A stretch of DNA of 64,000 nucleotides from a candidate division Zixibacteria bacterium HGW-Zixibacteria-1. GTDB taxonomy: Bacteria > Zixibacteria > MSB-5A5 > GN15 > PGXB01. The first letter of the stretch is position 1; each line of letters begins with the position of its first letter. Below are positions 6,595 to 57,958 of the stretch, piece by piece. The notes below the pieces were generated by a model. The model saw only the letters and a list, made by a program, of their open reading frames with translations, was not told the DNA's origin and searched no databases. Location of the stretch: positions 1 through 64,000 of the forward strand of contig PGXB01000015.1 in the NCBI GenBank assembly GCA_002838945.1, in the 5' to 3' direction. Made by a program: the position numbers and the translations under genes.

Positions 6595-7950
6595 ATGCGG
6601 AGCATGGACGATAAGTCGGAAAATCTGAGATTTTTCAAGGTTATCCTGAGTTCGATCGCCGATGGTGTCTTCACCGTTGACAGTCGGCGGATGATTACCA
6701 GCTATAATCGGGCGGCGGAGAAGATAACCGGGATACCCGCTTCGAAAGCCATCGGTAAAAGATGTTCGGATGTTCTGCATTCGGATATCTGCGCGAATTG
6801 TCTTCTTGAAGAGACCCTTAAAACCGGCATTGAGGCCATCGACCGGCCGGTTTATATAATAAACAATCGGGGCGAAAAAATTCCGATCAGTATTTCCACC
6901 GCCGTTCTTCGAGATGACAAAGGTGAGGTCCTTGGCGCCGTGGAAACTTTCCGGGATCTCTCGGCCATCGAACATTTGAGAAAAGAGCTTAATCAGAAAT
7001 ACACTTTCGAGGATATAATTTCAAAAAGTCCCCGGCTTCATAAGCTTTTTGCGATTCTTCCGGACATTGCGGAAAGCGAGAGCACTGTCCTGATTCAGGG
7101 GCCGTCGGGATCGGGCAAGGAACTGTTCGCGCGGGCGATTCATAACTTGAGCCCGCGCAAAGACCGGCCCTATGTTATTATCAATTGCGGAACGCTGCCG
7201 CATCAACTGTTTGAATCGGAACTGTTCGGCTATATGAAAGGCGCTTTTACCGATGCCAAGCAGGACAAGCGAGGAAAGCTGGCCATGGCGGAGAGAGGCA
7301 CTGTTTTTTTCGATGAAATCGGCGATTTGCCCTTGCCGACACAAATCAAACTGCTGCGCATGTTGCAGGAGCGCGAATACGAACCGGTCGGAAGCACTTC
7401 TCCGATAAAAGCGGACATCCGTGTGGTTGCGGCCACCAATAAAGATTTGAAGCAACTGGTGGCCCAGGCCAAGTTCAGGGATGATTTGTATTTCCGGCTG
7501 GCCGTGGTTAAGTTTGATTTACCGCCTCTGAGAGATCGTCGCGAAGATATTCCTTACCTGGTGGATCATTTTATCAAGCGTTTTAACGCCCGCAAGGGCA
7601 AGAAAGTGATCAGTGTCAGTCCCGATGTTATGAGCATACTCCTCCGCTATGATTTCCCGGGAAATATCCGTGAATTGGAAAACATTATTGAGTATGGCTT
7701 CGTGGTGTGCAAGGGAAGCATTATTCAGAAGGAACATCTTCCGGCAGAGCTTTTAAAGACGGTCAAGGAAAAACAGCATGATGAAAAAGAACCCGGCTCG
7801 CCAATCTCAGAATCGATAGATGAATACAGCCGTATTATCGATGCTTTCGAAAAAAACGAAGGCAGTATAGTCAGAACGGCTCAGTTTCTTGGAATCCACC
7901 GGACCACTCTTTGGCGTAAACTGAAGCGCTATAATATCCATATCAAATAG
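6595..7950 (+). CDS. PAS-AAA-Fis sigma54-dependent transcriptional activator
   Basis: 451 residues. A PAS domain covers about 8-125 and contains Cys57, Cys66 and Cys69 (RCSDVLHSDICANC), suggesting a redox, metal or heme ligand. The AAA+ domain follows: Walker A GPSGSGKE at 169-176, the sigma54-contact loop GAFTDA at 216-221 (consensus GAFTGA), Walker B GTVFFDEIGD at 235-244 and the R-finger region FRDDLYFRL. A Fis-type HTH closes the protein (TAQFLGIHRTTLWRKLKRY). It should open sigma54 promoters; the nearest is 150 nt downstream at 8102-8118, preceded by TGTTGC palindromes, so it most likely controls the redox operon that follows. The start could also be ATG 6604; neither has an ideal ribosome site. 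Confidence 0.9.
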   Translation: MRSMDDKSENLRFFKVILSSIADGVFTVDSRRMITSYNRAAEKITGIPASKAIGKRCSDVLHSDICANCLLEETLKTGIEAIDRPVYIINNRGEKIPISISTAVLRDDKGEVLGAVETFRDLSAIEHLRKELNQKYTFEDIISKSPRLHKLFAILPDIAESESTVLIQGPSGSGKELFARAIHNLSPRKDRPYVIINCGTLPHQLFESELFGYMKGAFTDAKQDKRGKLAMAERGTVFFDEIGDLPLPTQIKLLRMLQEREYEPVGSTSPIKADIRVVAATNKDLKQLVAQAKFRDDLYFRLAVVKFDLPPLRDRREDIPYLVDHFIKRFNARKGKKVISVSPDVMSILLRYDFPGNIRELENIIEYGFVVCKGSIIQKEHLPAELLKTVKEKQHDEKEPGSPISESIDEYSRIIDAFEKNEGSIVRTAQFLGIHRTTLWRKLKRYNIHIK

Positions 7951-11904: not shown

Positions 11905-13771
11905 AGTCCAAAATTTGAAACTGGTTCTGTGGATGATCATTGGCTTGGCGGCCGCCGTGGGGGTTACGCGGTTTATTTTCGGCCTTGGAGCTACGACCAA
12001 TTTGACCGACGCCACTCCCTGGGGTCTCTGGATCGGGTTCGATGTGATGGCCGGCGTCGCCCTGGCCGCGGGGGGATTCGTTATCACCGCCCTGTTCTAT
12101 ATCATGAGGAGGGAAGAGTTCCATTCTTTTGTGAAACCGGCGGTACTGACCGCGTTTTTGGGATATGTTGCCGTCATTGTCGGATTGTTGTTTGACCTGG
12201 GATTGCCCTGGAATATCTGGCACATGATTATTTTCTGGAATCCTCATTCACCGCTTTTCGAAGTCGGCTGGTGCGTGATGCTATATACCACCGTGCTGCT
12301 TCTTGAATTCAGTCCGGTGCCGCTGGAGGAAGCGAGCCGCTATGCCAGAATCAGGACCTTTCTGCTGAAATTCCGCTTTCCCCTGATCCTGCTGGGAATA
12401 ATGCTTTCGACCCTTCATCAATCCTCACTGGGTTCGCTTTTTCTGATAATGCCATATAAGCTTTATCCTCTTTGGTATTCGAATATAATGCCGATACAAT
12501 TTTTCATATCGGCGGTGGCGCTGGGGTTGATGATGGTTGCTTTCGAAAGTCTCTTCTCACATTGGCTCTATCGCAGGAAGACGGAAACTCAGAATATTGC
12601 AAAGCTCGGCAAAATAGCCGTATGGGTGCTGCTGATATATCTCGCGGTCAAGCTAATCGACATAATTATATCAGGCGAGTTTTCACTGATTTTCTCCGGA
12701 ACGTGGGAAGCCAACCTCTTCATAGTAGAGATTCTCATTTCGACAATAATACCGATAGTCATATTTTCTTTCAGGAACCTTCGCGACAAATCCGAATGGC
12801 AATGGGTCGGCGCTGTTTCGGTCGTTTTTGGCATGGTTTTTAACCGGATAAATGTCGGCGGTTTGACCATGCTTCGCGCGACGGGTGATGTCTATATTCC
12901 GTCGTGGATGGAAGTTTCAATCAGTCTTGGTGTTGTCTCGGCGGCTGTTCTGGCGTTCCTGTTTGCCATAGAAAAATTCCATGTCTGGGAGGATCGGCCG
13001 AAGCATCCGGAGACGGATCAATATGCCCTGCCTCAATTCGATCGCGCCTCGGAAGTCTGGCTGGGGCCGTCATCGGCGGCGGCACGAACCAAATATTCCC
13101 TGGCTTTCATAATATGTTTTGCGATTGCGTTTGCCTTCATTCCGGAACAGAAAATACGCAGTGAGGGAATCGAGCAAGTCCTCGTGCAAAGATCACGCGG
13201 CGGTGATAAGATATTTATCGATGGCAACCGCGACGATTACGGTGTTCTATTTGACCATGCCAGGCATGTCAAGGACAATGGAAAAGAGAATTCCTGCCTT
13301 TTATGTCATCATATGAATATGCCGCTTGACAGCAACAGCGGCTGCTGGGAGTGCCATCGGGACATGTACTCAAGGACCGATGTTTTTGATCATGACTGGC
13401 ACGCCTCCGCCTCAGGCGGCAGACTGAGATGCAATGACTGCCACTCCTCCGGTGTTCAAAGAAACGGCGAAGCCGTGAAAAAATGCGAGGATTGTCATGC
13501 GGATCTGATTTTGCAGAACTCGCCGATCGTTGTCAAGAGTCTCGAGGCGGTTTCATATACTGACGCCATGCATGACCTGTGCGTCACCTGTCACCGAAAG
13601 AAGGCGGTGGAAATTGCAGATAAGAAGGACCTGGCGCTGTGTTCAACGTGTCATCAATCGGCACCACCTGATTATTTGCAGCGGCTGTTGAAATTCAAAA
13701 ATCCCGGCCCGTCGTACAATCATGTTGTTTTGCCGGGGCTGGAAAAAGTTCAGCCGGAAAAGGTGCAATAA
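11897..13771 (+). CDS. NrfD/HmcC-like quinone-interacting membrane subunit fused to a hexaheme cytochrome c
   Basis: 624 residues. Residues 1-430 hold about ten membrane helices of the NrfD/PsrC/HybB family (TPWGLWIGFDVMAGVALAAG, LHQSSLGSLFLI and NRINVGGLTM are typical). Residues 450-600 carry six CxxCH heme motifs: CLLCH 467, CWECH 483, CNDCH 512, CEDCH 530, CVTCH 562 and CSTCH 582. Extra histidines (FDHARHV, FDHDWH) could be distal ligands, as in class III cytochromes. In known Hmc, Tmc and Qrc complexes the cytochrome is a separate secreted protein; here it is the tail of the membrane subunit and should face the periplasm. It would link the quinone pool to periplasmic electron carriers. 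No frameshift is visible. Confidence 0.88.
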   Translation: MNRVQNLKLVLWMIIGLAAAVGVTRFIFGLGATTNLTDATPWGLWIGFDVMAGVALAAGGFVITALFYIMRREEFHSFVKPAVLTAFLGYVAVIVGLLFDLGLPWNIWHMIIFWNPHSPLFEVGWCVMLYTTVLLLEFSPVPLEEASRYARIRTFLLKFRFPLILLGIMLSTLHQSSLGSLFLIMPYKLYPLWYSNIMPIQFFISAVALGLMMVAFESLFSHWLYRRKTETQNIAKLGKIAVWVLLIYLAVKLIDIIISGEFSLIFSGTWEANLFIVEILISTIIPIVIFSFRNLRDKSEWQWVGAVSVVFGMVFNRINVGGLTMLRATGDVYIPSWMEVSISLGVVSAAVLAFLFAIEKFHVWEDRPKHPETDQYALPQFDRASEVWLGPSSAAARTKYSLAFIICFAIAFAFIPEQKIRSEGIEQVLVQRSRGGDKIFIDGNRDDYGVLFDHARHVKDNGKENSCLLCHHMNMPLDSNSGCWECHRDMYSRTDVFDHDWHASASGGRLRCNDCHSSGVQRNGEAVKKCEDCHADLILQNSPIVVKSLEAVSYTDAMHDLCVTCHRKKAVEIADKKDLALCSTCHQSAPPDYLQRLLKFKNPGPSYNHVVLPGLEKVQPEKVQ

Positions 13772-13775
13772 AAAC

Positions 13776-14183
13776 ATGGGTAATAAAATCATGATAATTG
13801 ATGATGAGCAGGATGTGCTCGATTATTTGACAACTGTCCTGCAGGCCAATGGCTATGAAGCCATGAAATGTAAAACTGCCGATCAGGGCATGGAAATGGC
13901 CCGGAAAAACCGTCCGGATTTGATATGCCTGGATATCATGATGCCGAAAGAAACGGGGATTTCATTTTACGCCAAACTCAAGAAGACGGCCGAATTCAAA
14001 AATGTTCCGGTGGTGATTATCAGCGGGGCCATTCAGCGCGGGGAATTCGATTTCAGGTCCTATGTCGATGATGATACCATCGAAGAGCCGGAGTATTATG
14101 TCGAGAAACCGATAGTGGTCGATGAATTCCTGAACCTGGTGGCGAGCCTGCTGTCGGGACAAAAAACGGCGCGTGACAGGTGA
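13776..14183 (+). CDS. Single-domain response regulator
   Basis: 135 residues, one receiver domain: acidic pair in IIDDEQDV, phospho-acceptor Asp in CLDIMMP, Ser/Thr in VVIISGA and Lys in VEKP. There is no output domain, so it acts through a partner protein or phosphorelay. Start at 13776, 4 nt after the NrfD-fusion gene, so it belongs to the same transcript. In Desulfovibrio the hmc operon is also followed by regulator genes (rrf1/rrf2); the parallel is suggestive only. Confidence 0.9.
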   Translation: MGNKIMIIDDEQDVLDYLTTVLQANGYEAMKCKTADQGMEMARKNRPDLICLDIMMPKETGISFYAKLKKTAEFKNVPVVIISGAIQRGEFDFRSYVDDDTIEEPEYYVEKPIVVDEFLNLVASLLSGQKTARDR

Positions 14184-14190
14184 GACGATC

Positions 14191-15648
14191 ATGAGTGTGA
14201 AAGCTGCCAAAGATAAAAATGTATCGAAGTCATGGTTTGTGAATCGGTTTTTCCATCTGGTTCCATTCAATGTGGCCATTATTGATAAAGACTACAATAT
14301 TGTCGAGGCCAATGACAATTTCCATGATTATTTCGGTGAATGGGAAGGGCGAAAGTGCTACACGGTTTACAAGAAACAGAACAAACCATGTTCGGTATGC
14401 CCGCACAAACATATCTTCGAGGATGGCCGGCCGCGGGTTGTCGATACGGTCGTGATCGATCGCGACGGCCGCAAGGCGCATAATGTGGTACAGAGTATGC
14501 CCATGCGAAAGGGATCGGGCAACCCCATTGACTATATTGTCGAGATGTCGTCGGTCGTGACCGAGACTACCCGTCAGCAGCAGGAATTTAATATTCTCTT
14601 CGATCGGGTTCCATGTTATGTCGCTGTGATAGACGAGAATTATCGAATTGTCCGGGCCAATGAGAGCTTTCGTGAAAATTTCGGCGATGTTATGGGGCGG
14701 TATTGCTTTGAAGTTTACAAACGGCGCCGCAGCCGATGTCATAATTGTCCGGCGGCAAAAACATTTCGGGACGGCAGGATTCACCATTCGAACCAAAGCG
14801 GCCTTGGTAAGAGGGGTCAGAAGATTGATTATATCGTGTCGACGTCGCCGCTGCGACGCGGCGGCGGACGAGTCGCTCATGTCATCGAAATATCGAATGA
14901 TGTTACCAAAGTCAAAAGACTCGAGAGGGATATTCTCGATGCCGAGAGGCTGGCGGCTGTCGGGCAGACTGTCGCCGGTCTGGCGCACAGTATCAAAAAT
15001 ATTCTGATGGGCCTTGAAGGCGGAAAATATATGATCAGCCTGGGGCTGCAAAAGGGCGATCGGGCCATGATCGACCGCGGCAGTGAGATGCTCGATAGAA
15101 ATTTCAATAAGACCACGACCCTGGTAAAAGATTTCCTCAGTTTTTCCAAGGGGCGGCTGCCAAACTTGAAGATGGTGGACCCGAACGAGCTGGTTATGGA
15201 AATTGTCGATTTGTATAAGGATATCGCGGCACAGTCGGGAATCGAACTGAAAGCCGATCTTAAGACGAGTACAAAAAAAGCGCCGCTTGATCCTGACGGT
15301 ATCCATACCTGTCTGACGAATCTTGTTTCAAATGCCATCGATGCCTGCCTGATGGGGGAGCAAAAAGGTTCCGAAGTGGTGATATCGGTCAGGGATGAGA
15401 AGGGGAAACTTGTTTTCGGAGTGATGGATAACGGGGCCGGGATGGATTATGAAATAAAGAGAAAGATATTTACGACTTTCTTTACCACCAAGGGCGGGGG
15501 AGGGACCGGTCTCGGGCTTTTGACAAGCCGCAAGATTGTCCAGGAACATGGCGGCAAAATCGTGGTCGAGTCGCAGAAAAACAGGGGTTCCCGATTCCGC
15601 ATGGAATTTCCCCGTACCCGGCTCACCGCTTTGAATAAAGAAAATTAA
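14191..15648 (+). CDS. Histidine kinase with two cysteine-containing PAS domains
   Basis: 485 residues from ATG 14191 (AGGTGAG upstream). There are two tandem PAS domains (about 20-125 and 135-245), each with the same Cys pattern: KCYTVYKKQNKPCSVCP and YCFEVYKRRRSRCHNCP, that is Cys followed by CxxCP. This suggests a shared redox or metal-bound sensor site. The HisKA box is GLAHSIKNILMGLEGG with its His, then N box NLVSNAIDAC, G1 DNGAGMD, F box FTTFFTTK and G2 GTGLGLL. No membrane helix is seen, so it is a soluble sensor. It lies between receiver genes and probably phosphorylates one or more of them. The Cys-PAS pattern recalls that of the sigma54 activator at 6595. Confidence 0.9.
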   Translation: MSVKAAKDKNVSKSWFVNRFFHLVPFNVAIIDKDYNIVEANDNFHDYFGEWEGRKCYTVYKKQNKPCSVCPHKHIFEDGRPRVVDTVVIDRDGRKAHNVVQSMPMRKGSGNPIDYIVEMSSVVTETTRQQQEFNILFDRVPCYVAVIDENYRIVRANESFRENFGDVMGRYCFEVYKRRRSRCHNCPAAKTFRDGRIHHSNQSGLGKRGQKIDYIVSTSPLRRGGGRVAHVIEISNDVTKVKRLERDILDAERLAAVGQTVAGLAHSIKNILMGLEGGKYMISLGLQKGDRAMIDRGSEMLDRNFNKTTTLVKDFLSFSKGRLPNLKMVDPNELVMEIVDLYKDIAAQSGIELKADLKTSTKKAPLDPDGIHTCLTNLVSNAIDACLMGEQKGSEVVISVRDEKGKLVFGVMDNGAGMDYEIKRKIFTTFFTTKGGGGTGLGLLTSRKIVQEHGGKIVVESQKNRGSRFRMEFPRTRLTALNKEN

Positions 15649-15671
15649 ATATTTTTTATAAGGAGTCATAG

Positions 15672-16202
15672 ATGACCGAACCAGCAGAAAAAACGATTCT
15701 GGTCGTTGATGATGAAGAGGATGTCAGGAATTTTCTTGAATTGGCCCTGATCGAGGCCGGGTTCAGGGTGATTACGGCGGCCGACGGTATTGAGGCGCTG
15801 GAGACCGTCAGGAAAAAAACTCCTGATCTTATCTCTCTGGACCTGGTGATGCCGAAAAAATCAGGGGCTAAATTTTACCGGGAGCTTACCAAAAACAAAC
15901 AGTGGGCCAAAATACCGATCATCATCGTAACCGGTCATGCCCGCGACGAGCTCGGCAAAGCCGACCTGAAAGAACTTACCATGTCCGGCCCGGGGATATT
16001 TATCGAGAAACCGGTCAGGCCGGATCGCTATGTGGCGGCGGTGAAGAATAAACTGGGACTGGCCGTCACGGATGAAGAGAAGGAGCAGGCTGAACTTGTC
16101 GAACTGCAGAACGAGCTTAAGGATGTTATCGATAATGCGGATACCGAAACCCTGAAAAGCCTGAAAGACATTCTTGATCTAAAGATGAAAACCAGGAATT
16201 AA
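15672..16202 (+). CDS. Response regulator with short helical tail
   Basis: 176 residues: a receiver domain (VVDDEEDV, phospho-acceptor in SLDLVMP, VTGHA, EKPV) followed by a charged helical tail of about 45 residues (EEKEQAELVELQNELKDVID) that could be a coiled coil. AAGGAG eight bases before the ATG. It shares the layout and an inserted loop before the EKP motif with the other two receivers of this cluster, so the three are paralogues. Confidence 0.9.
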   Translation: MTEPAEKTILVVDDEEDVRNFLELALIEAGFRVITAADGIEALETVRKKTPDLISLDLVMPKKSGAKFYRELTKNKQWAKIPIIIVTGHARDELGKADLKELTMSGPGIFIEKPVRPDRYVAAVKNKLGLAVTDEEKEQAELVELQNELKDVIDNADTETLKSLKDILDLKMKTRN

Positions 16203-16240
16203 CGGATTTGTCAACATGACAGACAGGAGAATATGGCATC

Positions 16241-16621
16241 ATGCAAAATAATAAAACAATTTTGATCGTCGAAGATGAAGCCGATCTGGTCGAGGTGCTG
16301 ACCGTTTTCTTCAAAGAAAACGGGTATAAAACCATCGCCGCCTTCGACGGGCACGAAGGGTTTCAGAAGGCGGAGTCAGAGCGGCCCGACCTGATCACAC
16401 TGGACATATCGATGCCGGGTGAATCGGGGATAAAAATGTATCGTAATCTGATACATTCGGATAAAACGAAAGACATTCCGGTGATCATCCTGACCGGGGC
16501 GCCCTCCGAGTTAAAGACTTTTATTGCCCGGATGAAATCGTTTCCGGACCCGGCCGGGTATCTCGAGAAACCGGTCGATCGCGACGCGCTGCTGACCACA
16601 GTTCGGGGTTTGATCGGCTGA
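16241..16621 (+). CDS. Single-domain response regulator
   Basis: 126 residues: IVEDEADL, phospho-acceptor in TLDISMP, ILTGAP and LEKP. The last gene of the Hmc-like/two-component transcript; a strong terminator follows at 16662-16696. Three receivers next to one kinase suggest a phosphorelay or branched output, but no Hpt domain is seen in the window. Confidence 0.9.
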   Translation: MQNNKTILIVEDEADLVEVLTVFFKENGYKTIAAFDGHEGFQKAESERPDLITLDISMPGESGIKMYRNLIHSDKTKDIPVIILTGAPSELKTFIARMKSFPDPAGYLEKPVDRDALLTTVRGLIG

Positions 16622-16697: not shown

Positions 16698-16770
16698 CTC
16701 CCCCGGCAAGACTCGAACTTGCGACCCGGTGATTAACAGTCACCTGCTCTACCAACTGAGCTACAGGGGA
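16698..16770 (-). tRNA. tRNA-Asn (GTT)
   Basis: 73 nt without encoded CCA. Minus-strand acceptor TCCCCTG pairs with CGGGGGA (one T-G wobble); discriminator G. D arm GCTC/GAGC, anticodon arm GTGAC-TGTTAAT-CAC with anticodon GTT, T arm with GTTCGAGTC. A complete cloverleaf. Its 3' half is duplicated at 4093-4139. Confidence 0.95.
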
Positions 16771-20318: not shown

Positions 20319-20364
20319 TGCGTAATTTACGCATTTTCCAATCACCGGCTGCGTAGTTTACGCA
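20319..20364. promoter_or_regulatory. Upstream palindrome pair, cassette A
   Basis: TGCGTAATTTACGCA (20319-20333) and TGCGTAGTTTACGCA (20350-20364, one mismatch), start to start 31 bp. The same pair with the same 31-bp step occurs at 23537-23582. It lies 115 bp before a sigma54 promoter and so looks like an enhancer for a dimeric HTH activator, most simply the TPR-sigma54 protein encoded between the two pairs. Confidence 0.85.
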
Positions 20365-20377
20365 CTTTATTGATTTT

Positions 20378-20404
20378 CCGGGACGATCCCGGGTTTGTTT
20401 TATT
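20378..20404 (+). terminator. Intrinsic terminator of hprK
   Basis: CCGGGA (20378-20383) / TCCCGG (20387-20392), then GTTTGTTTTATTATT. It lies between palindrome pair A and the sigma54 promoter. Confidence 0.65.
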
Positions 20405-20462
20405 ATTCGTAAAGCGTTGCTATGCAGGAGTTTGTTGTGGGCGTTTATGCTTTTGTTCATAA

Positions 20463-20480
20463 TTGGTACATAGCTTGCTT
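20463..20480 (+). promoter_or_regulatory. Sigma54 promoter, cassette A
   Basis: TTGGTACATAGCTTGCTT with GG at 20465-20466 and GC at 20477-20478, 10 nt apart. The sequence GTACC begins 25 nt after the GG, at 20490, exactly as in cassette B, and is the likely start of transcription. Confidence 0.8.
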
Positions 20481-20489
20481 GTTATAACG

Positions 20490-20620
20490 GTACCACTTTA
20501 GCCTTAGAGGCATATCTTTCCTCCTAGGTGGTTGAAGTGTTTTAGTGTTGCAGTATTGCCGGGCCGGGAGCCGACAGTGTATGACCCACCATTTACCCGG
20601 CCCGTCTCTACTTTAAAGAG
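20490..20620 (+). ncRNA. Candidate sigma54-driven structured RNA or leader, copy A
   Basis: The expected transcript starts at GTACC (20490). It carries AGGTGGTTGAAGTGTT (20526-20541) followed by a second GTGTT, then GCCGGGAG inside a 9-bp GC stem (20560-20568/20596-20604, loop 27 nt), and TTAAAGAG (20613-20620). Every one of these blocks recurs in the same order at 23709-23827. No reading frame is shared by the two copies. The RNA may continue to a weak T-run terminator near 20783-20802, or read through into the peptide and regulator genes. I know of no named RNA family that matches. Confidence 0.6.
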
Positions 20621-20805
20621 CCCAAGTACTGCATAAAGAAACGCAATCCTCTCAAATTCGAAAATGCAAAATCCGGCCCCCAAAAAATCTGACAGTTTAG
20701 GTCATCAAAGACATTTAAATCGGTGATTTTAAGGTAAAAACGGCCGAAAAAGGGCATAAATTCGCCCATTTTGCTCCAAAAGCGGCCAAATTGCCTTTTT
20801 TTCAC

Positions 20806-20833
20806 TTGACATATTTTTTATATTTTGCATAAT
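20806..20833 (+). promoter_or_regulatory. Sigma70 promoter framed by an inverted repeat
   Basis: TTGACA (20806-20811), 16 nt, CATAAT (20828-20833). The inverted repeat CACTTGA (20803-20809) / TCAAGTG (20834-20840) brackets the whole promoter, which suggests a repressor or dimer contact. It would drive the peptide and TPR activator genes independently of sigma54. Confidence 0.6.
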
Positions 20834-20840
20834 TCAAGTG

Positions 20841-21072
20841 TATTGTGGGAAACTGGACATAGCGGGAGGCTCACCCTGTTTCGGCAGCGTCCCTGATCTT
20901 TTTAAGATTTCGGTGAGAATATCCTCTTCATTGGGTAAGCCTCAAACAAATTAGTTGGGCTATAAATGCGCCAGGTCGGTGTATATTGAGGCATACTGCA
21001 ATGATTGGGACAACCTCACACATTAGAGACATTTTAAAGCACGGGAACCCTTGATTAATGGAGTGGAGGCTT
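20841..21072 (+). other. Possible structured leader upstream of the small secreted peptide gene
   Basis: 230 nt without a gene between the promoter and the peptide gene. GAGGCTCACCC (20866-20876) can pair with GGGTAAGCCTC (20933-20943) with one mismatch, closing a domain of about 55 nt that contains a small hairpin (ATCTT/AAGAT). No riboswitch class I know fits the sequence. Confidence 0.35.
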
Positions 21073-21357
21073 ATGAAAAAGCTTTGGTTGTTAATCGTGT
21101 TAGTGGCATTCTTAGCGATGCTGTATGCGCCGGCCGTCGTAGCTGCCCCGCCGGGCTCGGATGATGGATTGATGACACCTGATGGCTCTGATCCTGGTGG
21201 AACTATAGACCCGCCGCCGCCGATCGATCCCCCGGATGGAGATCCTTGGGATCCAGGGGCCAAAATTATTGCTCCGCGCAATGATGACAAAACTGTACAA
21301 TCAGAATTTTGGGTTGTCATAAAAATTTGGAGTATCAGAATAATCTGTACCCGTTAA
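21073..21357 (+). CDS. Small secreted Pro/Asp/Gly-rich peptide
   Basis: 94 residues from ATG 21073 with GGAGG just upstream; an in-frame ATG at 21058 lacks a site. Signal peptide MKKLWLLIVLVAFLAMLY then APAVVAA. The mature part is low complexity, PPGSDDGLMTPDGSDPGG and DPPPPIDPPDGDPWDPG, ending in a hydrophobic and basic tail WVVIKIWSIRIICTR. No family recognised. It lies 38 nt before the TPR-sigma54 activator gene and is probably co-transcribed. It could be a secreted signal, a substrate of a secreted protease, or a structural peptide; none of these is shown. Confidence 0.65.
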   Translation: MKKLWLLIVLVAFLAMLYAPAVVAAPPGSDDGLMTPDGSDPGGTIDPPPPIDPPDGDPWDPGAKIIAPRNDDKTVQSEFWVVIKIWSIRIICTR

Positions 21358-21395
21358 AAGAATTTAAATTCTAGGAATAGATTAGTCTTGGAAAG

Positions 21396-23543
21396 ATGAA
21401 AACTTTTAAAAAAACATTTGAATCAATCGAGGAATTATTTGGTAATGCCAAATTTAGCGAGGCATTGGGAATTCTTAGAAAGATCGATGTTTCCAGTTTG
21501 ACTGAGACTGAATATTCCTATTATTGTTTGTTATTATCGCAGGCTATATTGTCAGTCGGTGATAATAAGGTCGATGAGTATATTCAGAAGGCTCTTTCTT
21601 TCTATAAATTATCGAACGATGACATACTCTATGCCAGATCTCGATATTTATTTGGGTGGCATTTGGCTGTAACCGGTGATTTCATTGAGGCACATGAAGT
21701 TTTGATGGAATCTTTTGTATTCTTTAAGCGTCACGACAGGTTTAGAGAAATGTCGTTGGTCCTTAACCGACTGGCATACGTGCAAAACCATACCGGCGCT
21801 ATTGAGGATGCCATATCAAATCTTAGAGAGAGCATTGCCATCAACAAAAATTTGGGTGTTCATGCAAATGTAATACAGTTCTCACGCAATTTAGGCATGG
21901 TTTTGGTCAGATCCGGAAAATTCCATGATGCAATAACCCATTTCCAATCCCTAACTAAAGAAGTCAAAAATCTTGATGTTGGCGGCAAACTAAGATTCGA
22001 TCTTGGATATTCGTTGGTGCTTGCATTTTTGGGTCAAATAGATGAAGCAATTAAAAAAATGCAGGCAGCCAGACCGAAAATATCTTCGTTAATGGTAGAT
22101 GAAGCCATATTTTACGAATACCTTGGCTGGATTTACAATCTTGATTCGAAGTACAATAGGGCAGTTGAGACACTTGAAAAGGGTGTTAAGATTGCCATCA
22201 AGATTGGTCCGGAATCTACCTATGTCTCCCAGACCAAGAGGCTTTTGGCGGATGCGTATTTGGGGCTGAAAAAATACGACCTGGCGCATAAAACCGCCCA
22301 AGAAGCCCTCGAGGTCGCCGAGAAAATCAGAGAACGTTCGGAAATTGCCGCGTGTTATCGGATTTTTGCTCAGGTAGAGCAGAATAAAAATAACAGCCGG
22401 CAGGCAAAAGTCTGGTATGGCAAGGCGATTGACATATTTTCCAATGTCAAATCGCGCTACGAATTGGCCGTGACCCGCTATCAGGCAGCGATATCGGGTC
22501 TCTACGAAAACGGCGAGAAGGCGGCGATGCTTTATCTGGCCAAAGAGTACTTTGTGTCGGAAAACATCGAGCACTATGTCAGCCTGACCGAACGTGAACT
22601 TGATCAGTATCGGCAGATGATTCCTGCGGCTTCGCATCCCGGCGAAGAAACATCGGTGTTCATCGTTCGGGATAAGCGGATGAAGCAGCTTGTTAAGCTT
22701 GCAGAGAATGTTGCTCCGTCAGCAATGACGATCTTTCTGACCGGGCCAACCGGCAGTGGAAAAGACCAGTTGGCCCGGTACATTCATCATTACTCGGGGC
22801 GCAAAGGCAAGTTCGTTATTGTCAATTCGGCGGCTATCCCGGACAGTATGGTCGAGGCGGAACTTTTCGGCTTCAAGCGCGGCGCTTTTACCGGCGCAGA
22901 GCACAGCCGCGTGGGATTGCTCGAAGAGGCGGATGGCGGGACGTTTTACTTGAACGAAATCGCCGATGCCACCCCGGAGTTTCAGGCCAAGCTGCTCGAA
23001 GTGATCGAGACGAAATTTATTCGTCAGCTCGGAAGTAACGCCCGCAAGTCGATCGATATCAGAATCATTGCGGCGACCAATAATGATCTCGAGGAGAAGA
23101 TGAAATCGGGCCGTTTCCGCCGCGATTTGTATCATCGTCTCAATGAAATCCCGATCGAACTGATGCCGCTGTCGGATCGTCCGGATGATATCCGGGCTTT
23201 GATCGAGCACTTCATCGAGCGGAACGGGCATGATCTGGAGAGTGTCTCCGACCGTAAAAATCTCGAAAGCATATCCAAAATTCTGGCTGAACGTTCCTGG
23301 CCGGGGCATGTCCGGGAGTTGAAGGCGGAAGTGAACCGGCTGTATCTTCTGGCCCGCGGTGATCTGGGCAGAATGGCGGAGAATGCGCTGGCCGAAAATC
23401 ATGATGAGTGCGAGCAGCTTCTTAAGGCGCTCGAGCAAACCGGTTGGAACCGCCGCGAAACCGCCCGGCTGCTGGGGATATCCGAGGGGGCGGTCCGGTA
23501 TCGAATCAAAAAGTATGAGATCGCTCAGGATGTCACTGCGTAA
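21396..23543 (+). CDS. TPR-containing sigma54-dependent activator
   Basis: 715 residues. The first 400 or so are a superhelix of tetratricopeptide repeats (FGWHLAVTGDFIEAHEVL, LAYVQNHTGAIEDAISNL, LGWIYNLDSKYNRAVETL, LADAYLGLKKYDLAHKTA). The AAA+ domain has Walker A GPTGSGKD at 450-457, a full GAFTGA loop at 496-501, the variant Walker B GGTFYLNEIAD with Asn where Asp is usual, and FRRDLYHRLNEI. A Fis-type HTH ends the protein (ETARLLGISEGAVRYRIKKY). No receiver, GAF or PAS domain is present, so the TPR domain must take the signal, perhaps a peptide or protein. The gene is bracketed by two palindrome pairs. Codon use in the first half looks more AT-rich than in the AAA part. Confidence 0.9.
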   Translation: MKTFKKTFESIEELFGNAKFSEALGILRKIDVSSLTETEYSYYCLLLSQAILSVGDNKVDEYIQKALSFYKLSNDDILYARSRYLFGWHLAVTGDFIEAHEVLMESFVFFKRHDRFREMSLVLNRLAYVQNHTGAIEDAISNLRESIAINKNLGVHANVIQFSRNLGMVLVRSGKFHDAITHFQSLTKEVKNLDVGGKLRFDLGYSLVLAFLGQIDEAIKKMQAARPKISSLMVDEAIFYEYLGWIYNLDSKYNRAVETLEKGVKIAIKIGPESTYVSQTKRLLADAYLGLKKYDLAHKTAQEALEVAEKIRERSEIAACYRIFAQVEQNKNNSRQAKVWYGKAIDIFSNVKSRYELAVTRYQAAISGLYENGEKAAMLYLAKEYFVSENIEHYVSLTERELDQYRQMIPAASHPGEETSVFIVRDKRMKQLVKLAENVAPSAMTIFLTGPTGSGKDQLARYIHHYSGRKGKFVIVNSAAIPDSMVEAELFGFKRGAFTGAEHSRVGLLEEADGGTFYLNEIADATPEFQAKLLEVIETKFIRQLGSNARKSIDIRIIAATNNDLEEKMKSGRFRRDLYHRLNEIPIELMPLSDRPDDIRALIEHFIERNGHDLESVSDRKNLESISKILAERSWPGHVRELKAEVNRLYLLARGDLGRMAENALAENHDECEQLLKALEQTGWNRRETARLLGISEGAVRYRIKKYEIAQDVTA

Positions 23544-23582
23544 TTTACGCATTTCTACATTTCCACCTGCGTAAATTACGCA
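23537..23582. promoter_or_regulatory. Upstream palindrome pair, cassette B
   Basis: TGCGTAATTTACGCA (23537-23551) and TGCGTAAATTACGCA (23568-23582), 31 bp start to start; the first overlaps the last codons of the TPR activator gene. 116 bp before a sigma54 promoter. Both copies are perfect around one central base. Confidence 0.88.
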
Positions 23583-23632
23583 GGAAATCAAGCCTTTCAA
23601 TAAATACTTAACCCCTCCAAAGTGACCGTAAG

Positions 23633-23649
23633 CCATTATATTATAATGG
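23633..23649. repeat. 17-nt perfect palindrome between enhancer and promoter
   Basis: Arms CCATTATA and TATAATGG around a central T. It occupies the place that the hprK terminator holds in cassette A. It may end transcription of the regulator gene or bend DNA; there is no T run. Confidence 0.5.
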
Positions 23650-23680
23650 GTTGAGTCGTCATGTGGGGCGGCTGTTCAAT

Positions 23681-23698
23681 TTCGGTACAGAAGTTGCT
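23681..23698 (+). promoter_or_regulatory. Sigma54 promoter, cassette B
   Basis: TTCGGTACAGAAGTTGCT, with GG at 23684-23685 and GC at 23696-23697, 10 nt apart. The -24 side is less perfect (CGGTAC) than in A. GTACC follows 25 nt after the GG, as in cassette A. Confidence 0.75.
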
Positions 23699-23708
23699 TA
23701 ATATATCA

Positions 23709-23829
23709 GTACCTCCACGTTGTTTCTATGTTCCCACAAGGTGGTTGAAGTGTTACGGTGTTACCGAGCCGGGAGAGGGGGTTAGGAAACTTCCTTAGGT
23801 TTCCCGGCTCGGTGATTCATTAAAGAGGA
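23709..23829 (+). ncRNA. Candidate sigma54-driven structured RNA or leader, copy B
   Basis: GTACC (23709), AGGTGGTTGAAGTGTT (23739-23754, identical to copy A), GTGTT, and GCCGGGAG inside a perfect 12-bp stem ACCGAGCCGGGA/TCCCGGCTCGGT (23763-23774/23802-23813). TTAAAGAG follows at 23820-23827. The stem sequences of A and B differ by changes that keep pairing on the outer side, which argues for selection on RNA structure. TTAAAGAG runs into GAGGAG, a good ribosome site for the short frame at 23838. Confidence 0.65.
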
Positions 23830-23837
23830 GATAGAAT

Positions 23838-23963
23838 TTGAAGCTTGCGGGCCGATTCGGGCTTTCAGGCATTAGGGGACACGACATCAGCGGACATTGC
23901 ATCACCTGTCAATCCAAACCCTGCTTTAGTATGGCGGGTTTACAAAAGGGGCGAGAATCTTAG
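23838..23963 (+). CDS. Possible small Cys-containing peptide (TTG start)
   Basis: A 41-codon frame with TTG start, AGAGGAG seven bases upstream and stop TAG at 23961. The product starts MKLAGRFGLSGIRGHDISGH and carries CITCQSKPC, three cysteines. There is no homologue in the window and no matching frame after copy A, so this may be chance. A 7-bp inverted repeat AGCCCGT/ACGGGCT (23962-23968/23997-24003) follows at once. Confidence 0.3.
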   Translation: MKLAGRFGLSGIRGHDISGHCITCQSKPCFSMAGLQKGRES

Positions 23964-24362
23964 CCCGTCGACATCTTTGATCAGACACCGGGGAGAACGG
24001 GCTGCTCGCTCCCGAAAAATATAAGGCCCCGGGAATAATCGAAATATCATAGTAAGCGATCCATGAATGGGAGGCTTACATAGAATGAGGCGGGAGTACG
24101 TCCCGGCCATAACTCATTCCATTGATTATATTGGCCGGACTGCTCTCGCTTCATGAAAATTACCTGCGGCGGTTCCGCCGAAAAAACACCTCGCCCGACA
24201 TCAAGAGTACCGCAAAAATCGATTACGAATTTTAAAGAGGGAGGAAAATAATATTGTATCAAAAAAGGTTTTTGCGTCTCTTATATTAGGCAATTAAAAA
24301 ATCACTGTCGGCTGAGAGCCGATTTCGAAGGTCGAATCGAGCAATTCAAGGGAGGTAAGTCA
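23964..24362. other. Leader region before the lipoprotein gene
   Basis: No clear gene in 400 nt. Inverted repeats occur at 23962-24003 and 24052-24057/24073-24078 (GTAAGC/GCTTAC), and a short GCGGCGG-TT-CCGCCG-like hairpin near 24164. Ribosome-site-like GGGAGG occurs twice (24069, 24238), each before an ATG or TTG frame of under 25 codons, which I do not call. Confidence 0.4.
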
Positions 24363-25460
24363 ATGAAGCACAAAATGTTGATGTCCGCCTTTATACTGGG
24401 TGTCTTTGGATTATTTATGGGTCTGTCATGCTGTGATGACTGCCCGACCTGCCCGAAAAAGCCGGAGCCGCCGCCGCTGGGGAAGTATCGCATATTCAGT
24501 TTCAATAGTTCCTATAAAAGGGTGGTCGCAATCGACACCCCGGCGGATACTGTCGTTAATATTACTCAGCTTGATTTTTACGGGTATGGCGTATTTGCTG
24601 TCCCGGGCGGTGACCGCTTATTGATAACGAATACTGATACACGAAAGATGCAGGTAATGGATACGAGAAGTTTTGAGTTAACCGAAGAGCTTGACCTGTA
24701 TGGAGATTATTTCTTTGACAAGAGCGACAATTATGGAATTGTATCTTCGTTTGAAAATGAGAAGACCTACCGAATTGATCCTGTGACACTATCTCCGGTC
24801 GATTCAGTACCTCTCGTAACTTATCACGGTTATCTGGACACCCTTACAAACAGCTTTTGGGGCACGATTTGCGTGACTGATTCATCGGGTTTGTCCTGCA
24901 ATATGATTCTGAATCTAGATTGTGATGACTTTTCAAATGTTGACACGCTTTTTCTGGACACCAGTATTTGGGTTGTCAATGTGGCATATAGCTGGCGAAC
25001 CAATGATTTATATATGCAGGGTGGAAAGAATGGATTCCCGGTAATTTTGTGTCACGATATTGACAGCGAGATCACGGAAGTAATACTGTACTTTACATTT
25101 CAAATCGGTGGCCTGCGTGTTTCTCCTGACGGCAGGTATGTATATATCACCGACAGCGGTGACGGGTCACATGGTATCTTTCCGACAGGTTATATTTATA
25201 TAATAGATACCGAAACACGACAGCTTTATGATGTAATACCGCCGATTGTCTATCCAGCGCAAGAGATTGGAATTGCCCTATGGGGTGAAATGTTGATAAC
25301 CCCCGACACCCGCCGGCTATATGTGGCCAGCAATCGTAATGCCTGGGGTACGATGCCGATTGCGGTCGTTGATCTGTATGAGAATAAAATAATCAAAGCC
25401 ATTCTCCCATTCAACAACTTTTGGGGTGAATCACTGGCATTGGTAGAATTACAGGATTAA
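24363..25460 (+). CDS. Lipoprotein with beta-propeller (YncE-like) fold
   Basis: 365 residues with a lipoprotein signal ending LFMGLSCC, then a Cys-rich start CDDCPTCPKKPEPPP. The rest repeats short blades such as VPGGDRLLITNTDTRKMQVMD, VSPDGRYVYITDSGDG and ITPDTRRLYVASNRN, each with the PDGxxxYV pattern of YncE/NHL-like propellers. It should be anchored to a membrane outside the cytoplasm. GGGAGG precedes the ATG. It is the first clear gene after sigma54 cassette B and lies 19 nt before the subtilase gene, so the two form an operon. Confidence 0.8.
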   Translation: MKHKMLMSAFILGVFGLFMGLSCCDDCPTCPKKPEPPPLGKYRIFSFNSSYKRVVAIDTPADTVVNITQLDFYGYGVFAVPGGDRLLITNTDTRKMQVMDTRSFELTEELDLYGDYFFDKSDNYGIVSSFENEKTYRIDPVTLSPVDSVPLVTYHGYLDTLTNSFWGTICVTDSSGLSCNMILNLDCDDFSNVDTLFLDTSIWVVNVAYSWRTNDLYMQGGKNGFPVILCHDIDSEITEVILYFTFQIGGLRVSPDGRYVYITDSGDGSHGIFPTGYIYIIDTETRQLYDVIPPIVYPAQEIGIALWGEMLITPDTRRLYVASNRNAWGTMPIAVVDLYENKIIKAILPFNNFWGESLALVELQD

Positions 25461-25479: not shown

Positions 25480-27327
25480 ATGTGTAAAATAAAATATTTG
25501 ATATTCGTTTCGGCGGTGCTGTTATTTTCTGCGGCTGTTAACGCCGATGATGTATATTATTATTGCGGCAATAGTACTCATTATATTACTCAGATCGATT
25601 CAATTATATCGATAAAATTTGATCCGGCGATGTCCGATAATCACTTTCAGACCTTCGCATATGAGATCGAAGAAATTAATGAAGAAATTTTGCCGGAACC
25701 GGCACATTATGGATTTAATGTCTATCATGTAAATGAAGGCGTCAATATTGACAGTTTACTTGATTCGTTAAATAGTCGCCCGGACATCCTATTTGCCCTG
25801 CCTGCCTTTACCGACCAATATGGCACTATTTACAAATTAAATGATCATTTAGTCACTAGAATCCGGGACTCAATCACATCGCAGGTATTGGATAGTGTAA
25901 TAAATGCCAATTCTCTGGAATTGGAAAAAGGGCCCAATATTTATACCGGATGCTGTGTATATAAATTGTCAGCCAATACAGGCAATAGTGTAATTGCTAT
26001 TTCCAATGATCTGGTTGAATCCGGTATATCGGTTTATGCTCATCCCAGTTTCGTAGAAGCGGATGATTTTGCCAGTATTCCAAATGATTCACTTTACCAC
26101 TTTCAGTATTTTCTGCAGAATAACGGGGACTATGGCGGTAATCCAATGATCGATATCGATATTGAAAAAGCATGGGATATCAGTACAGGGAATCAGGATC
26201 TGATTATTGCCATTATTGATAATGGTTGCGTTTCATGGCATGAAGATTTTGATTATGAATTAAGTTCAGAGACAGAAGGATATGATATTATTGGTGACGA
26301 TATCAAACACGAAAACCCGGATTATGATCCACGGCCGGGTGTACTTCAAAACCATGGCGTAGCCTGTCAGGGTATTATATATGGGACCCTAAATAATGGA
26401 ATGGGTATTGCCGGAATAGCGCCAAATTGTCAATTGTTGCCAATAAAGTGTTCTGACAATAATGGTTATAACGGCTATCCAAATCACTATCACGATGCGA
26501 TTGTACATGCGGTCGTACATGGCGCAAAAATAGTATCATGTTCCTGGGGGTGGCGCGGCTTTAGTCAGTGGGACGAAATAACTGATGCTTTGCAATTCGC
26601 AGTTAATTTTGGAGTTGTTTGCGTTTTTGCATCAGGGAACTATGGGGACCAATATCCAGTTGGTGAATCTATTGGTTTTCCGGCCAATTCACCCTACACC
26701 ATAGGGGTCGGCGCCATTGAAAGAGATGGTGATTACTGGCTTTATAGCGGGTCGGGCCCGGAATTGGATGTTGTTGCGCCGTCCGGACATAATTCTGTGA
26801 GTCACGGCGATGTGTATACGCTGGATCAGATGGGCAATGCAGGGTGGAATCCCAATTTAGGCACGTGCGACAGTACTAATGAAAATTATGTTTGCTTTTT
26901 TGGGGGAACATCTGCCGCGACTCCGCAGGTCGCGGGAATATTGGGATTAGTCAGAAGCAGGAGACCCGATATTAATTCGTTTGATACTCTTAAAATGATA
27001 ATAGACAACTCCGCGGTAGATGGAATTGGCGATTATTACGATTTGCCGGGATTTGATGTTGCCTATGGCAACGGGCTGGCCAGCGCTTTTCGGGCACTCT
27101 TGGCTATCAGCAGGGGTGATGTCAACTGCAGCGGCTCATTAAATATACTGGATATTATATATATTATTAATTATGTGTATAAAGGCGGACCTGAGCCGAT
27201 TCCTGATGTTTTAATGGCCGATGCGAATTGCGACGGCGTGATTAACCTTATGGATTCGGACTTCCTCATCGATTATCTTTACCGAGGCGGCCCGGCCCCG
27301 CAAATTTGCTTTGATTATGGTGAGTAA
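25480..27327 (+). CDS. Secreted subtilisin-like (S8) protease with type I dockerin
   Basis: 615 residues. Signal peptide YLIFVSAVLLFSAAVNA; a long prodomain to about 215; then the S8 domain with Asp247 (IAIIDNGC), His292 (NHGVACQG), oxyanion Asn in FASGNYGD and Ser478 (GGTSAATPQVAG). The Asp motif reads DNGC instead of the common DTGI. The last 70 residues are two dockerin repeats (DVNCSGSLNILDIIYIINYV and DANCDGVINLMDSDFLIDYL). It could mature or degrade extracellular proteins, including the Pro/Asp-rich peptide made by the neighbouring unit, but this is inference. Confidence 0.92.
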   Translation: MCKIKYLIFVSAVLLFSAAVNADDVYYYCGNSTHYITQIDSIISIKFDPAMSDNHFQTFAYEIEEINEEILPEPAHYGFNVYHVNEGVNIDSLLDSLNSRPDILFALPAFTDQYGTIYKLNDHLVTRIRDSITSQVLDSVINANSLELEKGPNIYTGCCVYKLSANTGNSVIAISNDLVESGISVYAHPSFVEADDFASIPNDSLYHFQYFLQNNGDYGGNPMIDIDIEKAWDISTGNQDLIIAIIDNGCVSWHEDFDYELSSETEGYDIIGDDIKHENPDYDPRPGVLQNHGVACQGIIYGTLNNGMGIAGIAPNCQLLPIKCSDNNGYNGYPNHYHDAIVHAVVHGAKIVSCSWGWRGFSQWDEITDALQFAVNFGVVCVFASGNYGDQYPVGESIGFPANSPYTIGVGAIERDGDYWLYSGSGPELDVVAPSGHNSVSHGDVYTLDQMGNAGWNPNLGTCDSTNENYVCFFGGTSAATPQVAGILGLVRSRRPDINSFDTLKMIIDNSAVDGIGDYYDLPGFDVAYGNGLASAFRALLAISRGDVNCSGSLNILDIIYIINYVYKGGPEPIPDVLMADANCDGVINLMDSDFLIDYLYRGGPAPQICFDYGE

Positions 27328-56383: not shown

Positions 56384-57958
56384 TTGTCAGAAGAGAATAA
56401 TAAAGGCGGCCTTCAAAGCGCCCTTGATGAATTGCGAAGTATCAATCGCATAATAGACAAAATTTGCCGTGTATGCGAAACCAATCATATAATGACTATC
56501 ATTATTGATGAATTGGTTGATATTACTGATGCCTCGCAGGGGGTCGTCAATCTCATATCCAGATTAAAGGATGAGGATCTTGTGACCGTCGTCCGCGGCA
56601 AAAAGTCGCCGCCAGGTGAAATCCCTTTTCGCGTCAGCAGCATGATTTCGGGATGGGTATTAAAAGAGAAAAAAATCCTCAAAATTGCCGACCTCGATTC
56701 TGATGAGAGATTTAAAGGGCTTGATTCCGATGACGGGAAATTTAAATCGATCCTTTGCTGTCCGATGGTTGTCCGGGGGGATGTCATCGGACTGACCACC
56801 CTCGTCAGAGACAAATCGAAGGGTCCTTTCAATGAGGATCAAAGCCGTCTGGCCGGGATCGTTGTTTCCCAGTCGGCGCAGATTCTCAGCAATGCCCTGT
56901 TGCTTGAAGAGGTGGCCCGCAAAAACGAATTACTGAAACTGTCACAGCGGCGGCTTCACGACGAGAATGTCCGTCTGCAATCTGAGATAGGTTCGGTTTT
57001 TTCCTTCGAGAATATTGTCGGCAAATCGGAAGCCATTAAAAGGGTCCTGATGACCGCCTCGAAAGTCAGTCACAATGATTCGCCTGTCCTCATCACCGGC
57101 CCGACCGGAACCGGAAAGGAATTGATTGCCCGGGCCATTCATTATAACAGCACCCGCAAAGATAAACCATTCGTGGTCAAAAACTGCGGGGTGAAAACCG
57201 AATCGCTTCTGGAAGCGGAGCTTTTCGGTTATGTCAGGGGTGCTTTCACCGGGGCCGATCGCGACAAGAAGGGTTTGTTCAAAGAGGCCGATGGGGGAAC
57301 CATATTTTTGGATGAGATAGGCGATGCACCGCTCTCGACCCAGGTGGCCATATTACGCGTTCTCGAAACCGGCGAAATTAGGCCGGTCGGAGCTACCAAA
57401 ACAGAATTTTCCAATGTGCGCATTATTTCGGCGACAAATAAGAATCTTCAGGAAGAGATCGAACGCGGGGACTTTCGACGCGACCTGTACTATCGACTCA
57501 ACACCTTTACGATTGAAATGCCGCCTCTTTCGCAGAGACGCGAGGACATACATTTGTTGATTCATCATTTTATCAGAAAACTGAAAATAAAATTGGGACG
57601 CGATGATCTGTCGGTCTCGCCGACGGCGCTTGATAACCTTGTCCGGTACTCATGGCCGGGCAATGTCAGACAGCTCGAAAATGAATTGGAGCGGGCGGCG
57701 GTGCTGAGCGACACCGACGGCATGATCGATACGACCGATCTTTCGGCCGAAGTTCTCGGTTCCGTATCCGGCGATGTCGGCCGGGGAAGCGCCGGCGGCC
57801 GGATGCGCGACATTATTGAGAAAGTCGAGCGTGAAATTATTACCGCGACTCTTAAAGAGACAAACGGCAATATCCTCAGAACCTCAAAAATTCTTGGTCT
57901 CACCCGCAAGGGTCTTAAAGATAAAATGATCCGTTACGGAATTACCTCGGAGAATTGA
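56384..57958 (+). CDS. GAF-AAA-Fis sigma54-dependent activator
   Basis: 524 residues from a TTG start with GGAG seven bases upstream. A GAF domain at about 20-175 (DITDASQGVVNLISR, FKSILCCPMVVRGDVIGLTT) is followed by AAA+ with Walker A GPTGTGKE, GAFTGA, Walker B GGTIFLDEIGD and FRRDLYYRLNTF, and a Fis HTH (TSKILGLTRKGLKDKMIRY). It should activate sigma54 promoters, none of which I can find nearby, so the targets are elsewhere. It converges on a TPR Ser/Thr kinase gene. Confidence 0.92.
   Translation: MSEENNKGGLQSALDELRSINRIIDKICRVCETNHIMTIIIDELVDITDASQGVVNLISRLKDEDLVTVVRGKKSPPGEIPFRVSSMISGWVLKEKKILKIADLDSDERFKGLDSDDGKFKSILCCPMVVRGDVIGLTTLVRDKSKGPFNEDQSRLAGIVVSQSAQILSNALLLEEVARKNELLKLSQRRLHDENVRLQSEIGSVFSFENIVGKSEAIKRVLMTASKVSHNDSPVLITGPTGTGKELIARAIHYNSTRKDKPFVVKNCGVKTESLLEAELFGYVRGAFTGADRDKKGLFKEADGGTIFLDEIGDAPLSTQVAILRVLETGEIRPVGATKTEFSNVRIISATNKNLQEEIERGDFRRDLYYRLNTFTIEMPPLSQRREDIHLLIHHFIRKLKIKLGRDDLSVSPTALDNLVRYSWPGNVRQLENELERAAVLSDTDGMIDTTDLSAEVLGSVSGDVGRGSAGGRMRDIIEKVEREIITATLKETNGNILRTSKILGLTRKGLKDKMIRYGITSEN

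Follow-up and report, generated by a model that had tools for sequence, protein, structure and literature searches.

A candidate self-regulated peptide-signalling module built on a TPR-sigma54 activator in Zixibacteria

Introduction

Peptide signalling through tetratricopeptide repeat (TPR) receptors has been described in Firmicutes and their mobile elements, where the RRNPP family (Rap, Rgg, NprR, PlcR and PrgX) comprises receptors of ~250–500 amino acids (aa) that carry an XRE helix-turn-helix (HTH) or are Rap-type phosphatases (PMC10075063). The LuxO-Qrr circuit of Vibrio relies on a sigma54 enhancer-binding protein that is a phosphorelay response regulator, together with small-molecule autoinducers, membrane kinases and a regulatory RNA as target (PMC10162802). 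Here a 64,000-nucleotide stretch of DNA (the window) from candidate division Zixibacteria bacterium HGW-Zixibacteria-1 (assembly GCA_002838945.1, contig PGXB01000015.1, positions 1–64,000) was analysed, in which the gene of a sigma54 activator with N-terminal TPRs is bracketed by two doubled operators and preceded by the gene of a small, putatively secreted peptide. Comparison with related genomes suggests that these parts probably form a self-regulated, RRNPP-like peptide-signalling module in which the sigma54 activator doubles as the TPR receptor. The balance of evidence also leans slightly towards a phylum-wide signalling class of such modules in bacteria of the Gram-negative type, in which a sigma54 activator with a one-residue operator code would receive a secreted tryptophan-acidic (W-acidic) peptide through its TPRs, induce that same peptide and have a structured regulatory RNA as its conserved output.

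The likeness to RRNPP systems lies in a small precursor gene with a Sec-type signal next to one for a cytoplasmic TPR receptor, in TPRs of the peptide-binding type, in signals that occur in tandem or in multiple copies, and in a secreted protease among the putative targets, as is also the case for NprR. The receptor, however, has 715 aa with a sigma54 AAA+ domain and a Fis HTH, in place of the XRE HTH or Rap-type phosphatase of the much shorter RRNPP receptors, and the module is therefore not classed as an RRNPP member. It differs further in its non-Firmicutes phylum, the W-acidic signal, the doubled enhancer operator and the structured RNA output, and no OppA was found in its own genome. With LuxO-Qrr it shares a sigma54 enhancer-binding protein that has a putative regulatory RNA as target within a signalling circuit, yet the N terminus here consists of TPRs with no receiver domain, so that the activator contains its own sensor, with an encoded peptide as candidate signal; moreover, the RNA has no Rfam match and hence represents no Qrr family.

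The ligand-sensing one-component sigma54 activators, such as DmpR/XylR and NorR, likewise unite a sensor, an AAA+ domain and a Fis HTH in one protein that acts on upstream operators, but their sensors are V4R or GAF domains, whereas a TPR sensor of the peptide type is found here, with a candidate ligand encoded in the same operon. The TPR domain finds its best structural match in domain III of MalT, a STAND regulator that senses maltotriose and acts at sigma70 promoters, yet neither a STAND/NOD ATPase core nor a LuxR HTH was detected here by Pfam. The TPRs of kinesin light chain, a eukaryotic motor adaptor, are related to those of the activator by sequence, and their concave face binds W-acidic peptides in which Trp is flanked by acidic residues (PMC6214655); the resemblance of such ligands to the candidate peptide is an analogy. 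No description of a system of this kind was found in the literature searched, most subscription journals being outside the search.

Results

The activator gene (21396–23543, forward strand) encodes TPRs (residues 5–408), a sigma54-interacting AAA+ domain (423–588; Pfam Sigma54_activat, E = 8e-58; GAFTGA loop in the translation) and a C-terminal Fis HTH (671–707; Pfam HTH_8), and the full protein was modelled by AlphaFold2 with a mean predicted local distance difference test (pLDDT) score of 90. Together with the RpoN (sigma54) encoded in its own genome (Sigma54_DBD, E = 2.6e-58) and the co-variation of HTH and operator described below, these features are those of the NtrC family. On either side of the gene lies an operator pair, to which no strand is assigned. 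Pair 1 (20319–20364), which is also present upstream of the activator in the sister genome (G001), consists of the dyads TGCGTAATTTACGCA (20319–20333) and TGCGTAGTTTACGCA (20350–20364, with one mismatch), and pair 2 (23537–23582) of TGCGTAATTTACGCA (23537–23551) and TGCGTAAATTACGCA (23568–23582), the two dyads being 31 bp apart in both. In pair 2, the first dyad overlaps the stop codon of the activator (GCG TAA), and bases are shared in the same way at three loci of relatives (L070, L073 and L079). Each pair is followed on the forward strand by a sigma54 -24/-12 promoter (TGGTACATAGCTTGCT at 20464–20479 and CGGTACAGAAGTTGCT at 23683–23698) at an offset from the dyads that is the same in relatives. 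In both promoters GG-N10-GC is intact, the GG of the -24 element (20465 and 23684) lies 115 and 116 bp past the start of the second palindrome, and GTACC begins 25 nt past the GG (20490 and 23709). The palindrome pairs, their spacing, both promoters, the offsets and the GTACC had been described in the initial annotation and were found at their coordinates. It had further described a duplicated geometry with different sequence in between: the geometry stands, but both promoters lead into the same RNA element (see below).

A scan of the 3.83-Mb genome for the palindrome, with up to one mismatch allowed, returned exactly these four copies. The exact pair is not widespread either, as had been anticipated: of the phylum's 132 genomes, only 5 contain the doubled TGCGTA pattern, all of them within the window's own family, and none contains the reversed pattern that served as control. 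The arrangement is far above chance. A chance origin of the palindromes was rejected, as was the reading of the pairs as orphan operators; what looked like another, third copy of the GGTGG motif (on C58) proved to be a chance match inside coding sequence. Elsewhere, three operator-like dyads stand in a row with 31-bp spacing at L276 (G011:C84:13875–13951), in a genome without a close match to the family-1 activator.

Close homologues of the activator were found in ~45 places among relatives. A profile search of contigs with the full activator alignment returned generic NtrC proteins only, with a weak TPR match at one locus, because the conserved patterns sit in the AAA+ domain. Palindromes stand beside the orthologous activators as well, in diverged form: dyads at their 3′ end vary in sequence (TGCGTAGACTACGCA, TGCGTAACTTACGCA, CTCGTAAATTACGAG, CTCGCAGTACTGCGAG and TTCGTAAGCTACGAG), and dyad density is 1.88 per kb at this end versus 0.10 per kb elsewhere (~19-fold). 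While the operator sequence changes, intact pairs in relatives keep a spacing of 30–32 bp, and the promoter starts 103–108 bp past the second dyad in both cassettes of the window and at L069, L070, L073 (twice), L078 (twice), L080 and L087 (92 bp at L075). The half-site is tracked by the residue at position three of the N-x-[R/S] turn in the HTH (N685-R686-R687 in the window, codons at 23448–23456 on the forward strand, R687 being the co-varying residue): of 19 informative cases with Arg, 14 have TGCGYA, and all 47 with Ser, Thr or Leu have YTCGYA (Fisher P value = 1.5e-10, uncorrected for relatedness). On a tree made without the HTH, seven switches yielded six independent pairs, of which four to six were concordant and none opposite.

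Because the half-site changes with its recognition-helix residue, it is very probable that the TPR-AAA-Fis protein binds the doubled operators. Such predicted binding to DNA is well supported at the level of sequence, and one residue of this kind may set the operator sequence of each activator copy. The earlier proposal that this protein binds both pairs and drives both units draws strong, independent support from the 3′-end dyads, the half-site co-variation, the kept geometry and the presence of RpoN. The own genome encodes ~20 sigma54 activators, many of them of the NtrC type, and another of these might use the dyads while the TPR protein acts elsewhere. Such an assignment is very improbable, as the own genome has the dyads at this locus only, and in relatives they mark the ends of the orthologous gene and vary together with its HTH; control of the dyads by an unrelated activator was rejected.

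Upstream of the activator, a small open reading frame (ORF) of 94 aa (21073–21357, forward strand), with a GGAGG Shine-Dalgarno sequence, encodes a predicted signal peptide, the W-acidic motif DGDPWDP (codons 55–61; 21235–21255) and a hydrophobic C terminus. A sigma70-like promoter of the peptide-activator operon (TTGACA, 16 bp, CATAAT; 20806–20833, forward strand) was identified by eye and is unscored; a similar TTGACA-type element stands at the same place in relatives. Between the window and the sister genome, the peptide ORF differs at 31, 23 and 44 first, second and third codon positions, respectively, that is, mostly at the third. The phylum offered 106 usable TPR-sigma54 loci in two paralogous families. 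With signal peptides called by a hydropathy rule rather than SignalP, a secreted small ORF was found directly upstream of the activator at 100 of these, and loci without a detectable peptide were inspected by eye and treated as exceptions. A strict W-acidic motif is present at 76 of the 106 loci. By comparison, among 27 control loci of sigma54 activators without TPRs, a small hydrophobic ORF was found at two and the strict motif at none. Under looser scoring, the motif occurs in 87% of the peptides versus 10.6% of shuffles, with the consensus GDDHPWGGD.

Several loci multiply the peptide, with tandem genes at L073 (two), L078 (three), L090 and L110 (two each), and a five-copy precursor is encoded in G041 (DDHPWGD, DEHPWVD, DDHPWND, DDHPWGE and DDTPWGD). 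A 190-bp stretch ahead of the latter contains six YTCGTA half-sites, several of them 21 bp apart, and is accompanied by a sigma54-like promoter (TGGCACGGGGTTTGTA), the arrangement that would be expected if the activator induced its own signal. The second paralogous family, which most of the phylum's genomes contain, carries DDHPWGG almost throughout. In the own genome it is represented by a second TPR-sigma54 activator (L120; G000:C13:4556–6565), which has its own secreted peptide (DDHPWGG). In the sister genome, an ORF beyond the second RNA (L279; G001:C11) ends in FFSVKIWSIQVAD, like the C terminus of the peptide, and is possibly a decayed second peptide gene.

As the full-length fold search was dominated by AAA+ matches, the TPR part, with its 21 helices of the TPR fold, was folded separately and reached a pLDDT of 94. 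Its best matches in the Protein Data Bank are the sensor domain III of MalT (TM-score 0.68/0.76) and the peptide-binding LGN/Pins, with the quorum sensor NprR at rank 38, and its profile matches include kinesin light chain, LGN, AfsR and RapJ (E = 9e-7), those to RapJ and NprR being below the best ranks. Kinesin light chain is among the nearest named TPRs by sequence, although the similarity of single sequences is weak and in part common to TPRs in general; its binding of W-acidic peptides is a suggestive analogy for a TPR-peptide interaction here. Conserved polar residues on the groove-lining helices (K83, which is Arg in the window protein, N124, N165, R282 and R322) would suit an acidic ligand, as judged from helix order.

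MalT being the best structural match, the TPRs might instead sense something else, for example a small ligand as MalT does, and the peptide might be an effector, bacteriocin-like or displayed at the surface, that is merely co-transcribed with the regulator. Some relatives offer a bacteriocin-like setting for it, with Cys-rich hydrophobic lipoprotein tails, CPBP proteases and a radical SAM/SPASM maturase with an ABC transporter. However, the W-acidic heptad is conserved phylum-wide, as is typical of a ligand and not of a diversifying toxin, and in nearly all loci the peptide genes adjoin the activator rather than the targets, which makes an effector improbable.

Both sigma54 promoters lead into an RNA element consisting of GGTGGTTGAAGTGTT..GTGTT plus a GC-rich stem of 9–12 bp. 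Copy 1 (20487–20610, forward strand) and the first domain of copy 2 (23709–23817, forward strand) were captured by a common model (R1). A second domain of copy 2 (23948–24013, forward strand) was recognized by eye as the hairpin GGGGCGAG..GCCCG..CGGGC..CTCGCTCC, which is kept in the sister genome, a similar one being found at L070. In the own genome and relatives (30 genomes searched), the model matched solely these cassettes (two each in G000 and G001, one each in G005 and G009). A block of ~54 nt of copy 1 is identical in the sister genome while its flanks are 43–66% identical, and there a base is inserted in both stem arms such that pairing is retained. Folding z-scores range from −2.0 to −4.1, and both-sided changes in 4 of 15 predicted pairs, among six sequences, lend modest support from covariation. 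No Rfam family matched the window at gathering threshold, and none was credible at E values of up to 10 over 20450–24362.

It is possible, though doubtful, that the shared RNA is merely the 5′-untranslated region of downstream genes and has no role of its own: in the window it lies ~550 nt ahead of the lipoprotein-subtilase genes, and long GC-rich leaders follow the promoters at other loci too. Yet copy 1 is conserved far better than its flanks. The sister genome retains the entire second cassette and its RNA though no lipoprotein or subtilase gene comes after it, and in G009 the RNA is followed only by a convergent gene. Because it is kept in these two genomes with no gene following on that strand, the RNA appears to be an independent product. 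The structured RNA would seem to be the most conserved output of the module, perhaps with a regulatory function. At L078, L080 and L087, sigma54 cassettes are followed by long leaders with repeated GC-rich hairpins that do not match model R1.

The unit downstream of the second cassette begins with a beta-propeller-like lipoprotein gene (24363–25460, forward strand), followed by that of a secreted subtilase with a dockerin domain (25480–27327, forward strand). In G003, homologues of both (34% identity, E = 4e-59, and 44% identity, E = 2e-173, respectively) lie behind a cassette that precedes the activator by ~5 kb. Targets turn over around a constant regulator, peptide and operator, and this pattern supports a signalling role. 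At L112 (G084:C60), genes of a radical SAM/SPASM maturase, a CPBP protease and an ABC transporter come after the activator's sigma54 promoter, which suggests a cluster for a ribosomally synthesized and post-translationally modified peptide (RiPP) as target. At L073, L077, L078, L082, L097, L108 and L114, the downstream proteins, lipoproteins for the most part, have Cys/Gly-rich hydrophobic C termini, some of them being near CPBP proteases, and Pfam and NCBIfam offered no name for them; the suspicion that the Cys-rich lipoprotein tails resemble halocin C8 found no support in either database.

Elsewhere in the window, two more sigma54 activators without TPRs are represented by their AAA+ domains (7018–7722 and 57017–57715), response regulators and a PAS histidine kinase cluster at 13722–16621, and a tRNA lies at 16698–16770 on the minus strand.

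Discussion

The initial account of the module was right as far as it went but overlooked the secreted peptide gene, the shared structured RNA and the spread across the phylum. With these included, sequence comparison supports the predicted operator and promoter anatomy, the activator-operator pairing and the conservation of both the peptide gene and the RNA. From these parts, a switch can be proposed as follows. A constitutive sigma70-like promoter (20806) would express the peptide precursor and the one-component sigma54 activator from the same operon, with the TPR superhelix of the latter as sensor. We infer that the precursor is exported and matured, that its W-acidic part (DGDPWDP here) returns to the cytoplasm, possibly via an oligopeptide transporter of the OPT type, and that it then binds the TPR groove. 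The activator, seated on two dyads three helical turns apart, would contact sigma54-RNA polymerase at a promoter 104–108 bp away, presumably activating rather than repressing it. Switching on the cassette upstream of its own operon would then provide positive feedback, and each cassette would yield a structured RNA, the downstream one continuing into the lipoprotein-subtilase operon.

Several observations weigh against this proposal. The groEL-linked subclade (L096, L098, L099 and L102) has the activator without a peptide gene, and in some members (for example L238, L250, L260 and L263) the small secreted ORF lacks the W motif; the hydrophobic C terminus of the peptide is also conserved and would be superfluous for a short pheromone. 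The TPR matches are in part generic. For the operator code, the phylogenetically corrected test rests on few pairs (median P value = 0.06), and no clear excess of TGCGYA was seen at five Arg-type proteins. Finally, the own genome (97% complete) encodes neither an OppA-type SBP_bac_5 binding protein nor a POT transporter, so that the usual RRNPP import route would seem to be missing; one OPT transporter is present. Peptide import is thus the weakest step of the signalling reading. As a separate observation, the groEL-linked subclade retains YTCGYA half-sites downstream.

The main rival to peptide signalling needs no re-import: preprotein stuck in the cytoplasm when secretion is saturated might bind the TPRs via its W-acidic motif, so that the activator would report secretion load and not cell density. 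The absence of both importers fits such an export monitor, as do the hydrophobic C-terminal segment that the precursor keeps besides the motif and the secreted lipoproteins and proteases that are the downstream products at several loci. Nevertheless, the five-copy precursor and the tandem peptide genes better fit the release of short repeated ligands, and an OPT transporter is at hand; monitoring of export is accordingly rather unlikely, and a returning peptide signal is preferred.

If this proposal is true, peptide signalling via cytoplasmic TPR receptors would extend across a further phylum and rely there on other output machinery, and a single protein would combine the peptide logic of RRNPP systems with the enhancer logic known from LuxO-Qrr. 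The products that are candidates for its control are the subtilase, the lipoproteins and a possible RiPP cluster. For an uncultured phylum, the module would supply a signal peptide that can be tested, an operator code readable from one residue and a new RNA.

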